A DNA stretch of 64,000 nucleotides, taken from NCBI RefSeq assembly GCF_040939785.1, contig NZ_CP162553.1, forward strand, positions 2,666,001-2,730,000. Direction: 5' to 3'. Of this stretch, positions 45,041 to 49,840 are shown piece after piece (position 1 is the first letter of the stretch; each line of letters opens with the position of its first letter). The stretch comes from Bradyrhizobium lupini (GTDB lineage Bacteria; Pseudomonadota; Alphaproteobacteria; Rhizobiales; Xanthobacteraceae). The position numbers and the translations under genes are program-made. The notes under the pieces are model-generated. The model ran no database searches. It saw only the letters and a list, made by a program, of their open reading frames with translations, and was not told the origin of the DNA.

Positions 45041-45337
45041 TTAACCGAACTTGAATAGGACACCGTAACCGCCGCGTGGGTAGCTCCACTCGATATCACC
45101 ACTTTCTTCGCAGATCACCCTGCAGGTGCCGCACTCGATACACCCATCGACTGTCACCTCAACATGACCTTTATCATTGAGCTCGTAGCACCGTGCAGGG
45201 CAGGCCTTCAGCATCGATAAGAGCCGCGAGGATGGCGTGGTGTGCGGACGTACCTTGATGTGGGCGCGGCCGGAATCAACGAGATAACGGTTGTAGAATA
45301 GTTTATCCTCGACACGTTGGGATGGCTCGCTCGGCAT
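45041..45337 (-). CDS. fixX: ferredoxin-like protein FixX
   Basis: This 98-residue protein has the usual FixX length. It has the cluster motif [11 protein letters not shown] (C-x2-C-x2-C) with another cysteine pair in [10 protein letters not shown], and ends with the typical [13 protein letters not shown]. FixX accepts electrons in the FixABCX electron-bifurcating complex, which delivers low-potential electrons to nitrogenase. I chose the ATG at 45,337 (GGAG upstream); a longer frame to 45,424 would overlap fixC. It lies 40 bases after fixC. Confidence 0.96.
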
Positions 45338-45377: not shown

Positions 45378-46685
45378 TCACCGCCAGGCCCGGGCAATGC
45401 GCAGGGCATCGCTAAACAGCCCACTCCAAGACCGGGCCTTGATGAACGAGCTCAGCATCAGCTTCTCTTTCTCGAGCTTTGGTGTGCCGTCGACGCGCAC
45501 GTAATCCTGCATCGCCTTGGAGAAGAGCTGCGGATATGTGAGAAAGAAGTTCTGCGAGTGGGTATGCATGAGTGCCGGCATATCTTTGTACTTCTTCAGG
45601 TCCTTGATCACGAAAGAATCAGTTAGCATTTTCTTGTAAAGCGAAAGATTTTTGGCCGTCATCGGATCTTTTCGCGATCTGATAAGGCAGATCGCTTCCG
45701 CCGCGATACGGCCCGACGTCATCGCCAAATTGGACCCCTCGCGATGGATGGCGTTGTTAAGTTGGGCGGCGTCTCCGACGACCACCCAGCCCTCCCCGCA
45801 AAGCTGCGGGATTGCCCTGTACCCACCTTCGGGGATCAAGTGCGCGGAATATTCCTTGACCTCCGAACCTTCGATGAGCGGCGCGACGGATGGGTGACGC
45901 TTGAAACCCTCGAGCAGGCCGTAAGGCGTCTCGCCGGTACGCTGGAAGTCGGCAACAAGACAGCCAATACCGAGCGAGATGCATTCCTTATTGGAATAGA
46001 TGAAGCCCATACCGGTCATGCCGCGGGAGATGGTTCCGACCGCTTCGATGACGAGCCCCTCGTCGCCTTTGAGATTGAAGCGAGCGTCGATTGTCTCGCG
46101 TGACAAAAAATGCATCTCCTTAACCGCGAGTGCGACCTTGTCCGGTTTCGGCCGCCCTCTTAAGCCCGCGCCCGTCCCGAGCACTCCGTTCACCCCCTCG
46201 GCCAGCACGACAACATCTGCATGGATTTCACCCCCATCGCGGTCTGTGCGCACCCCGACGACCCTGCCATGGGAATCCTGGAGGAGCTCGGTCACCGTGG
46301 TCTCGCACAGCACGGTAGCGCCGGCGTCGCGGACCTTCTGCGACAACCATTTATCGAACTGGGCGCGGATGATGGTGTAGCGGTTCGGCTTCTCCTCGTT
46401 GAAATCATCGGATCGATAGTGAATCCCGGTGTGCGAACGCTCGTCCAGGATCCAGAAGCGTTGCTCGACTAGATGCCGCTCAAGCGGCGCATCTTCTCGG
46501 AAATTCGGAATCAGCTTCTCCAGCATGTCGGCATAAAGGATGGCCCCTTGCACGTTCTTCGACCCGGAATACTCGCCGCGTTCCAGCTGCAGCACTTTCA
46601 GACCCCGCTCGGCCATTGTAAGCGCCGCCGCGTTCCCGCCCATGCCAGCACCGACGACGATGGCGTCGAATCTTTCCTGAATCAT
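45378..46685 (-). CDS. fixC: flavoprotein-ubiquinone oxidoreductase FixC
   Basis: This 435-residue protein has the FAD-binding [11 protein letters not shown] at the N-terminus and the ETF-QO family blocks [20 protein letters not shown] and GVIGTGAGL-like [13 protein letters not shown]. FixC is the quinone-reducing flavoprotein of the FixABCX complex at the inner membrane. The gene follows fixB by 11 bases and precedes fixX by 40. All features suggest it is intact. Confidence 0.97.
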
Positions 46686-46696
46686 AACAAGCTCCC

Positions 46697-47809
46697 CTAG
46701 CCAGCGATGCGGTCGTGCGAGTGCGGCGATAGCTGCGCGCGGAATGCAGAGGTCAACGCCGGCAACAGTCGAATGGCGTCGGTGACGATGCCGATATGGG
46801 CAAAGTCGAAGATCGGAGCGTTCTTGTCAGTGTTGATGGCAACGATGAGGTCGCCGCCCTCCACGCCGACGCGATGCTGGATAGCGCCGGAAATGCCGGC
46901 CGCGATATAGAGCTTTGGCCGGATGGTTTTCCCGGTCTGGCCGATTTGTCGGTCGGAGGTGGCCCAGCCCTTCTGGACCAGCGGCCGCGAGCAGCCATAT
47001 TCGGCGCCAAGCACGTCCGCGAGCTGGTGTACCAGTTGGAAATTTTCAGGCGATCCCAGACCGAGCCCTCCAGCGACGACCACGTCGGCATAGGCAAGGT
47101 TGGACTTTGTAGAATCGCGGTCTGGCAGGAAGGACAGGACTTTTGTGACGATATCTTCTTCTACAAGCCCGAGCGGATGCGAGATGACGCGCGAGACGGC
47201 GCCTGTCACGCGCTCGGGCATCGGCATCACGCGCGGTCGGACGGTTGCCATCTGTGGACGATAGTTGAGTGTGTAGATCGTGCACAACAGTGAGCCGCCA
47301 AACGTCGGCCGGGTCGCTGCAAGCGAGCCGTCGGCATCGACATCGAGTTCTGTGCAGTCGGCAGTTAGGCCGGTGAGCAGTGTGGTGGCCACTGAGCCGG
47401 CGAGATCACGGCCGAGTGTTGTTGCCCCTAGGAGTAGGATTTCCGGCTTGTAAGTGTTGACCAGCTCTGACAGGGCCTTGGTATAGGACTGGTTGCGATA
47501 ATCGGCCAAGAGATTGTCCGCGACGATATAGGCGAGATCGGCGCCGTAGCAGAACGATTCGGCGACCGCCTGCTGCGTTGTCTCCCCAACCGGGCCGATG
47601 ACAACCGCGGCGAGGTCAACATTAAGCTTGTCGGCGAGCCGGCGGCCGGCACCCATCAGCTCCCATGAGACGGGGTGCACGACCCCGCGTTCCTGCTCGA
47701 TGAAAACCCAGACGTGCTTATACGGCTTAAATCGCTCGGGCAGCTCCCTCTTGGTCGCCGCGCGACCACCACCCGCGGCCGGAGCTGCACTTTTCGGTGC
47801 GGTGCTCAT
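46697..47809 (-). CDS. fixB: electron-transfer flavoprotein alpha-like FixB
   Basis: This 370-residue protein has an alanine-rich N-terminal extension and the ETF-alpha C-terminal FAD domain. The blocks [20 protein letters not shown] and [20 protein letters not shown] bind FAD. FixB pairs with FixA to oxidise NADH with electron bifurcation. Two adjacent ATGs (47,812 and 47,809) follow GGGAG. An intact fixA is missing from its expected place directly upstream; only a relic of its start remains (48,392-48,522). The complex must use FixA from elsewhere, as in other symbiotic bradyrhizobia. Confidence 0.96.
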
Positions 47810-48391
47810 CATCTGTACTCCCATTCGCATTCAGTTGCGGCTCGCCAGCGGAGCATGCTCCGCCTCCAGGTTGGAATTCGCGCTTGAAGATTTCTTCAGT
47901 TAAGCGTCGGGCCAGATGCCGGCCAGCATCGCGTCAGCACCGCCTGGCAGCAGCGCGGGGCCGACACAGCCCTTGCTGGACCTGGGCCACGAGCCCGGAA
48001 GCATGCGCTTCGGGTTCGTTCCGGATTCGGCATACTGGGGCGACGGTTTGGTTCCGGGCACTGCTAAGGCACCGACCCGGCCGGTCAGGCGTGCCGATCG
48101 ATTGGTCCTCCTCATCTTAGAGATGCAACAGAGGTGCAACAGATCAAGGAGCTGCGAGGGGCTCGGCTGGTACGATTGTCGGCCGCGTGCTTGCCGATGG
48201 AAGCGCGATCCCATTGCTCCGAGTGCCCTTGTTTCTTGCCGATCATAGCGACAGGCACGCAACTCCTCGCGAAGACAGGAGGGGCGGCGCTCAAGGCGCC
48301 CGGTCAACGGCGCCGCACGGCCGGCGCTGTTGAGCAACGGCTCCCCCCGCGAAACCTCGGCCAGGGATCGGCCAACGGGGGCGCACGAATC
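47810..48391. other. leader region of fixBCX without intact gene
   Basis: This stretch should be transcribed from the sigma54 promoter at 48,553-48,568. No intact frame is convincing. It occupies the place of fixA in a fixABCX operon, and sequence beyond the first ~40 codons of the relic is no longer recognisable. A poor -24/-12-like match at 47,910-47,925 is probably chance. Confidence 0.4.
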
Positions 48392-48522
48392 AAACGCAGC
48401 TTTCAGCTCCGCCGGGTATGCGACCATCGCTTTGGCGTCGCGACGCATTATGGTGCCGGCAGGCAGCGCGCGCGAACCGGCGCGGCGTCAAAAACAAAAT
48501 CGATGCGGACCAAGACGAGCAT
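48392..48522 (-). pseudogene. fixA: relic of the fixA 5' end
   Basis: The ATG at 48,522 has GGAG six bases upstream and lies about 19 bases after the predicted transcription start. It reads MLVLVRIDFVFDAAPVRARC. Positions M1, V5, I7, V10, D12, A14 and R17 coincide with the FixA start MHIVVCIKQVPDSAQIRVHP as I know it. After a one-base shift the frame continues TIMRRDAKAMVAYPAEL, against FixA TIMRQGVPAIVNPYDL. Spacing and position upstream of fixB support a fixA remnant. The family comparison is from memory, not an alignment. Confidence 0.55.
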
Positions 48523-48552
48523 GCGCTTCTCCAGACTAGCTGAGCATATGTC

Positions 48553-48568
48553 AGCAATTGTCGTACCA
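48553..48568 (-). promoter_or_regulatory. sigma54 promoter of the fix operon
   Basis: The minus strand reads TGGTACGACAATTGCT, one base from the consensus TGGCACG-N4-TTGCT, with GG-N10-GC exact. The predicted start is near 48,541. The intact part of the operon (fixB) begins about 730 bases further on. Confidence 0.8.
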
Positions 48569-48664
48569 ATTTGCGCAGGCGATGAAAATTGATCGCTATT
48601 TCAGAATCTTATCGAAGGAGGCGGCATCTCACGAGATCGAAACATTCGAGACCGTACTGACCCG

Positions 48665-48680
48665 TGTCAGGAATGCGACA
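48665..48680. promoter_or_regulatory. NifA site of the fix operon
   Basis: TGTCAGGAATGCGACA matches TGT-N10-ACA exactly, 97 bases upstream of the -24 element. This is the normal distance for NifA activation by DNA looping. Confidence 0.75.
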
Positions 48681-48952
48681 GAAGACACTCATCCGAACCT
48701 TGGTGAGCTTTCGTCGCGACGTGTGCGGTCCCGCTGCCGGCGCATGATTGCAGGAGATAGGTACAGCATGCGTACCAGCTTAAAAGGATGGAAATATCAG
48801 CGGTGAGTCGTGATTGGCCCCTAACGAGCCGAGGTGCTCAAGCTGCGGATCCGCGAGGCCGCGACTGTAACTTTCCGCTTGAATTCGAAACCATGGCTTG
48901 CTGTCAGGCTCTCGGGACCTTCACGGTCCAGAGCACGACATATGAGCTCAAT

Positions 48953-49285
48953 TCACTCCAACAAATCGAGCTGGACCAATGCTGGATGCTTGTTCGCTTG
49001 TGGTGCGGCCGCATCCTTCAGCACCTTGAATACGCGCTGTTCGATCGGGGTGGACGTGACGAAGTCGGCATAGGCGCGCTCAAGCGTGGCCTTGCAACGC
49101 GCGGCGATCTCAGGATCAGATGCACCGGTCAACTCCTCGCCTGCGAGATATTGGCCCATGCGACGCAGGATGTGAAGCCGCGCCACATCGACGATTTTCG
49201 CATCGTACTCGACGCCGAGGAGTGAAAAAAACTCCTCTGCGGCCGAGGCCTTGTTCAATCGCGCAAGGATGCCATCAGTCGTCAT
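48953..49285 (-). CDS. nifW: nitrogenase-protective protein NifW
   Basis: This 110-residue protein matches NifW in length and sequence (ILARLNKASAAEEFFSLLGV, ARLHILRRMGQYL, AYADFVTSTPIEQRVFKVLK). NifW associates with the MoFe protein and is linked to its maturation or oxygen protection. The ATG at 49,285 has GGAGG six bases upstream. It follows the nifV relic and probably belongs to the nifH-nifQ transcript, with the fix promoter starting downstream of it. Confidence 0.95.
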   Translation of the reverse strand: MTTDGILARLNKASAAEEFFSLLGVEYDAKIVDVARLHILRRMGQYLAGEELTGASDPEIAARCKATLERAYADFVTSTPIEQRVFKVLKDAAAPQANKHPALVQLDLLE

Positions 49286-49335: not shown

Positions 49336-49840
49336 TCAACCCGATCGCGCGACGCGCGTGGCTGATTCGCTGTTGACGAGCGAGCTCTCGTGAATGTCGC
49401 GCCAGATCGCCAACACCGTTTCCTGCACACCAAACCTTGGTGCTCGATCGCATGCTTGCGGACGGGCGCGGGGATGGTTTCGCTTTGCTCGGCGCCGAAA
49501 GAAAGCTGCACGACAGCAGCAAGGTGATCGGGGCGAACCCTGAATGCTTTCCGATCACAACCCGGGAGGAGCGGCGAGCAGCCCCGGGCCGAGCCCCTCG
49601 TAGCTGCGCCGGGTCCTTTAACAGCCCGTGGTCGTGGATGCCGGGTGCATTGGTAAAGACATGCTCGTCGACAATCGCCTTGTTGAGCGGGATGGTACGG
49701 GGCGCAGCGGCTGCAACGACGACCGCGGCTTTTTCCAGTTCGGATAGCAGTACGCCGGTATCACCGCAACAGAGCTGTCTGGGTGCGACGGCAACTTCCT
49801 TCAGCGGCGCATTGTCGGCTCCGCCAGATATCAACCCGCG
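49336..49840 (-). pseudogene. nifV: truncated, frameshifted homocitrate synthase (nifV relic)
   Basis: On the minus strand the frame reads LISGGADNAPLKEVAVAPRQ, then IVDEHVFTNAPGIHDHGLLK and VVIGKHSG. This is the second half of a NifV/LeuA-type synthase, including the conserved V-F-x-H-x-x-G-I-H-x-x-G-L and G-K-H-S-G blocks. It continues after shifts as VRKHAIEHQG and VLAIWRDIHESSLVNSESAT, ending at a stop at 49,336. The N-terminal half with the acetyl-CoA/metal site is missing. Many symbiotic bradyrhizobia lack NifV and receive homocitrate from the plant, so this relic documents its loss. Confidence 0.8.

Follow-up and report, generated by a model that had tools for sequence, protein, structure and literature searches.

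A fixA relic in front of fixBCX and the probable complementary decay of two operons in symbiotic bradyrhizobia

In symbiotic bradyrhizobia, fixA stands apart from the other genes of its former operon: in Bradyrhizobium diazoefficiens USDA110, according to an excerpt of the published account (PMC4036050), it is found behind nifA, and fixBCX is located 260 kb away. The locus analyzed here raises the question of how this separation came about and what the DNA that now occupies the place directly in front of fixB represents. The window (the entire stretch of 64,000 nucleotides of Bradyrhizobium lupini DNA that was analyzed; G000:C1:2666001-2730000) comes from a genome that consists of a single 7.83-Mb contig and encodes on the minus strand, in this order, nifH, nifQ, a nifV remnant, nifW, a fixA relic, fixB, fixC and fixX. 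Among the loci listed, that of Bradyrhizobium canariense BTA-1 is the closest one (99% for FixB).

Within this cluster, nifH (51677-50772) was named from its sequence and place, and nifQ (50768-49980) and nifW (48953..49282; NifW family, E 1.3e-31) were identified using Pfam. The nifW gene is the upstream neighbor that marks the ancestral nifW-fixABCX order, which is also present in Mesorhizobium, Sinorhizobium and Rhizobium. On the other side, fixB (46697..47809; Pfam) is intact, starts at the conserved ATGAGCACC in a frame that is open from position 47830 and has kept its gggag ribosome-binding site. It is followed by an intact fixC (45378..46685), with FAD-protein domains detected by Pfam and 99-100% identity to the FixC of L005, and by an intact ferredoxin-like frame (45041..45337) that is named fixX from its place and sequence. 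The nifV gene between nifQ and nifW is decayed too: the remnant (49505-49819, minus strand) matches only residues 228-332 of Mesorhizobium NifV, no site in the genome scores above the NifV family cut-off, and L007 is the only one of the seven clade relatives examined that holds a long unbroken nifV match (residues 2-325).

A full-length fixA relic between nifW and fixB

The initial annotation of this region described about 42 codons that track the FixA N-terminus, followed by some 600 bases of unreadable DNA. The homology is real, but it is not confined to the N-terminus: similarity to fixA extends from the ATG at 48522 to the old stop at 47831, adjacent to fixB (47831..48522, minus strand). 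In Smith-Waterman alignments of this segment with six intact linked fixA genes, the scores are 91-116 (z 5.7-8.4) and were never matched in 200 dinucleotide shuffles for each of the six genes; similarly, none of 500 codon shuffles of the L038 fixA attained its score of 116. The real scores thus lie above every shuffle, in keeping with the homology proposed initially. Control comparisons of the relic with fixB, fixC, nifH, nifQ and reverse-complemented fixA yielded scores of 31-42, and the unlinked fixA of the same genome scored only 54. When the entire window was scanned (E <= 0.01) with a DNA HMM derived from the sequences of 28 intact linked fixA genes, two matches were obtained, both on the correct strand (48363-48093, 9.1e-6, and 47967-47831, 2.9e-5), and nothing was detected elsewhere. 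The bases considered unreadable are therefore mostly fixA too, and the additional remnants whose presence was suspected between 47,810 and 48,391 were recovered up to the old stop.

The relic contains frameshifts and shows a net loss of bases. An early 1-base loss, present in each of the eight rows aligned for the window's clade, precedes the codons ACC ATA ATG CGT (48443..48454, minus strand), which encode TIMR in a frame other than that of the ATG, exactly as the initial reading, with its single shift, had it. In a MAFFT alignment that included the window row, the relics of seven relatives and five intact genes, the window row and the L033 fixA are aligned in 688 of 843 columns, with 53% identity; the respective values for the relatives' relics are 53-54% (L005) and 56-59% (the other six). 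A protein search of the genome with intact linked FixA missed the relic even at E <= 1; besides the unlinked fixA, this search reached only an etfB-like gene (31%) and one match at E 0.48. The proof rests on the DNA level and on the relatives. The homology in the right place and orientation, the broken frame and the change without coding constraint confirm that the stretch in front of fixB is a real full-length fixA relic, which is a gene fossil of an already known sort. An earlier report of a fixA relic in front of fixB was not found in openly licensed papers.

The linked fixABCX systems of free-living and photosynthetic Bradyrhizobium, Rhodopseudomonas, Azorhizobium and Xanthobacter have fixA at the same position in the gene order, with nifW upstream in most of them; the position of the sigma54 promoter is the same and the DNA is homologous. 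Their fixA genes, however, are intact and consist of 280-282 codons, whereas that of the window is frameshifted and partly deleted. For a broader comparison, the best-scoring 80 fixB loci of a longer list were used. A fixA frame is located directly upstream of fixB in 29 of these 80 loci (in L016, it is cut by the contig end) and is absent there in 51. The intact linked fixA lies between nifW and fixB, which bears out the notion that the operon was once fixABCX. Among the 51 loci of this set that lack fixA, the HMM (E <= 0.01) detected a relic in 50, the weakest E values being 0.008 and 0.0056; in B. embrapense (L065), no relic was detected with this HMM and threshold. The decay is graded: in jicamae and sp. 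190, the HMM traces almost the whole length of the gene; the retamae-valentinum group retains approximately codons 1-60 and 160-281, and in several loci, e.g., nanning and huanghuai, the relic is down to short pieces. Another lesion, a 1-base loss at base 88, is common to jicamae, sp. 190 and lablabi, the three strains for which lesion lists were used; for the retamae, macuxiense and japonicum types, the lists are unreliable owing to an insert between the promoter and fixA that leads to over-alignment. In 10 loci (L022-L025, L027, L028, L031, L043, L050 and L055), an inserted stretch between the sigma54 promoter and the relic contains a small frame of approximately 42-55 residues with the core LPLLLA..GI.LW.T.A.MP.E..FDAI; this frame is changed or broken in other members of the group and is absent from the window's clade.

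The signals in front of the former gene were recognized in the initial annotation, and all of them hold up. The sigma54 -24/-12 promoter TGGTACGACAATTGCT (48553..48568, minus strand) is the sole match between nifW and fixB and aligns with TGGTACGACACTTGCT, the promoter that precedes the intact fixA of five relatives. The NifA-type upstream site TGT-N10-ACA (48665..48680, minus strand; consensus as cited in an excerpt of PMC4999443), identified by pattern matching, is likewise the single match between these genes and lies 112 bases before the -24 element; at this site, the aligned intact loci have TGT..GACG, an imperfect match. The two elements stand at the usual spacing, which is the motif arrangement of a NifA/sigma54-dependent unit. 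The former fixA ribosome-binding site ctggagaagcgc (48523..48534, minus strand) directly precedes the ATG at 48522, and these 12 bases are the same as those in front of intact fixA in two of the 28 intact linked loci (L011 and L014). No sigma70 promoters were detected in 47700-48960, and the one terminator-like match in this interval is on the plus strand, with a frequency no higher than in shuffles. Judging from the motifs, NifA and sigma54 would start transcription near 48542 and read about 730 bases of the relic into fixB, so that the relic, presumably retained due to its position between the NifA/sigma54 promoter and fixB, would now serve as the leader of fixBCX. Gubler and Hennecke reportedly described, in 1988, a fixBC leader of about 700 bases in B. 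japonicum. Leaders in USDA110 are typically 20-40 bases long and rarely exceed 200 bases, as stated in an excerpt of PMC4842269.

Such a placement, between a conserved promoter and fixB, is also what would be expected of a functional long leader, a regulatory RNA or a small peptide, that derives from fixA and has come under selection at the sequence level. The rates of change, expressed as the mean difference in 28 pairwise comparisons among eight strains of the window's clade, bear on this possibility: the values are 0.137 for the relic, 0.149 for the nifW-side spacer and 0.096 for the promoter block, next to 0.156 and 0.013 for fixB, and 0.183 and 0.019 for fixC, at fourfold sites and codon positions 1+2, respectively. 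The relic thus changes slightly less than the fourfold sites, which allows for weak constraint, but about 10 times more than fixB codon positions 1+2; furthermore, the gaps are mostly of one base in the one relic pair examined, no open frame of uniform extent spans the relic in nine relatives, and Rfam yielded nothing at E <= 0.1. These rates fit a relic that changes almost neutrally, preceded by a promoter that is better conserved, with slight constraint on the relic possible, and a leader selected for its sequence appears improbable. Still harder to credit is the replacement of fixA by another gene, such as the opposite-strand hypothetical protein of Bradyrhizobium sp. 187, in the record of which an annotated frame crosses the relic. 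Both strands of the window do carry long frames, but across nine relatives no frame on either strand keeps its extent: for the longest antisense frame, the alignment covers the full length only in L005, about that length in L007 and 30-135 residues elsewhere, and the 182-residue sense frame is blank in Pfam. Without a frame of conserved extent in the relatives, a replacement gene was rejected.

The unlinked fixA and the genes behind it

The same genome contains an intact unlinked fixA (G000:C1:2380308-2381165), which lies at a distance of about 330 kb from fixB. The arrangement of fixA and fixBCX is the same as in USDA110, where the split is 260 kb; the excerpted account of that genome (PMC4036050) states that fixA is located apart from fixBCX and, within its compass, makes no mention of a fixA relic in front of fixB or of a fixB relic behind fixA. 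FixA was searched for in 78 genomes, a set to which the genome of L011 does not belong. An intact unlinked fixA was found in 50 of the 51 relic genomes from the best-scoring 80 loci; in the remaining one, the draft of B. mercantei (L042 in G037), which has fixBCX and the relic, an intact fixA was not found, which may reflect a gap in the assembly. Of the searched genomes with linked fixA, only that of B. sacchari has a second FixA with more than 60% identity, located within its second, relic-bearing set. In B. zhengyangense (L067), which is on a long FixC branch, a nifH-nifQ-nifW cluster is combined with an intact linked fixA and an unlinked FixA with more than 60% identity was not found; this could be a case of the linked copy being kept.

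Altogether 50 unlinked loci were compared, 49 from relic genomes and that of the window genome. The C-terminal part of NifA is encoded upstream of fixA on the same strand in 40 of these, and a sigma54 box is located 50-55 bases 5' of the start in 47. In the FixA tree, a single branch (SH-aLRT 99) sets off all 50 unlinked proteins, next to the linked Bradyrhizobium FixA. Further broken fixA copies exist outside both main loci (G002:C102:44246-44974 and G050:C75:23641-24491), along with fixA pieces in G017, G018, G020, G022, G023 and G024, these copies and fragments showing 47-97% identity to the FixA of the window genome.

A decayed fixB follows the unlinked fixA in 12 of the 50 loci, and in two more, those of both macuxiense strains, a 5' remnant of fixC alone is present; no trace of fixB or fixC was detected within about 1.5 kb past fixA (the extent of L085-L144) in the other 36. 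In jicamae, sp. 190 and Ai1a-2, which harbor the longest relics at both loci, almost all of fixB can still be traced, distributed over two or three frames; in other strains, the fixB relic is reduced to approximately the first third. The FixC of the second locus (FixC-II) is open in nine of the 12 loci with a fixB relic, namely without a stop in retamae, valentinum, hereditatis, archetypum, Leo170, lablabi, Ai1a-2, jicamae and sp. 190. In BRP22 the FixC-II frame is broken, and no FixC-II was detected in algeriense or CSA112. In five strains, dN/dS is 0.21-0.41 for FixC-II versus 0.08-0.20 for FixC-I; with the open frame and these values, FixC-II in the five strains is relaxed rather than neutral. 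The traces of fixX at the second locus are weak.

These remains show that the second locus was nifA-fixA-fixB-fixC, probably with fixX included. FixC-II likewise forms one group next to the linked Bradyrhizobium copies, and the second operon may have originated by duplication within the lineage or by transfer from a close relative. Behind the unlinked fixA of the window genome, tblastn and the fixB and fixC profiles revealed no remains of fixB, fixC or fixX; because only fixA remains there, the second operon in this particular genome is inferred from the relatives. Two operons thus probably underwent complementary decay. The original idea that fixA decayed after a second copy took over is right in that fixA did decay and a second copy does exist, but it calls for refinement: this copy was a fixA-fixB-fixC operon that itself lost fixB and, in most strains, fixC.

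One or several losses of fixA

A tree of FixB and FixC was constructed after dropping nine rows with a short FixB translation (eight relic, one intact); L060 has no fixC in its contig. In the free tree, seven intact free-living clusters group with 13 relic loci that include the window's (SH-aLRT 96), and 31 other relic loci stand apart from the window's group. On DNA, seven relics (jicamae, sp. 190, Ai1a-2, WSM3983, Oc8, valentinum and lablabi) are placed beside the unlinked fixA (97), and four window-type relics are placed with the free-living linked fixA (80-81, a weak support on a long branch). Under one scenario, fixA would have been lost once, in the common ancestor of all relic-bearing symbiotic bradyrhizobia, with only later deletions differing. 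The confinement of all unlinked FixA to one group agrees with such a single loss, as does the result of constraining all 44 relic rows together, which costs 24.9 log-likelihood units and is not rejected (AU p 0.096). Against it stand the grouping of intact free-living clusters with the window's relic loci, the split of the relics between linked and unlinked fixA on DNA and the large deletions, which differ among the relics, with no lesion seen that is common to all of them. A single loss accordingly seems somewhat doubtful, and at least two separate losses are favored, although not proven. In both trees, the window's clade is placed with free-living linked clusters and not with the lineages in which reciprocal relics occur, so the nifW-side cluster of the window may have a separate history and may derive from a free-living cluster type. 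A bolder proposal, which we regard as unlikely, is that convergent splits of fixABCX occurred two or more times, always in one direction, with fixA kept by nifA and fixBCX by nifW to yield a hybrid FixAB flavoprotein; this one-sidedness would then stem from selection, e.g., for coupling the expression of fixA to the nifA region, and not from chance loss.

Proposed history and its implications

Whatever the number of losses, it is highly probable that the fixA relic descends from an ancestral nifW-fixABCX cluster, that two operons decayed complementarily, and that FixAB is now assembled from both. This history builds on the observed relic and its nearly neutral rate of change, the synteny, the intact second fixA and, at the second locus of the relatives, the remains of fixB and the frames of fixC. 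The 692 bases that precede the frame of fixB are the full-length remains of fixA, which would have been the first gene of the ancestral cluster, and the ancestor of symbiotic bradyrhizobia would have held a second such operon, adjoining nifA. With each gene present twice, redundancy would have permitted decay: the nifW-side operon would have lost fixA and kept fixBCX, and the nifA-side operon would have kept fixA and lost fixB, plus fixC and fixX in most lineages. The FixA encoded about 330 kb away would then have to pair with the FixB of the window, forming a FixAB flavoprotein that comes from two former operons.

In reciprocal, or complementary, loss after duplication, each of two redundant sets loses members that the other retains, and the two add up to a single set. 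The case described here differs from the general one in that the genes concerned belong to a single operon that encodes one protein complex, and in that jicamae, sp. 190 and Ai1a-2 still show partly decayed states at either locus. The strains decayed to differing degrees at the two loci provide a graded series for complementary operon decay, which is the part of this work that deserves the attention of specialists. Such a history would account for the unlinked fixA of symbiotic bradyrhizobia, a long-known oddity of gene order, and for the unusually long leader that fixBCX would carry; it would also mean that the subunits of one obligate complex are now produced from two former operons, under separate promoters.
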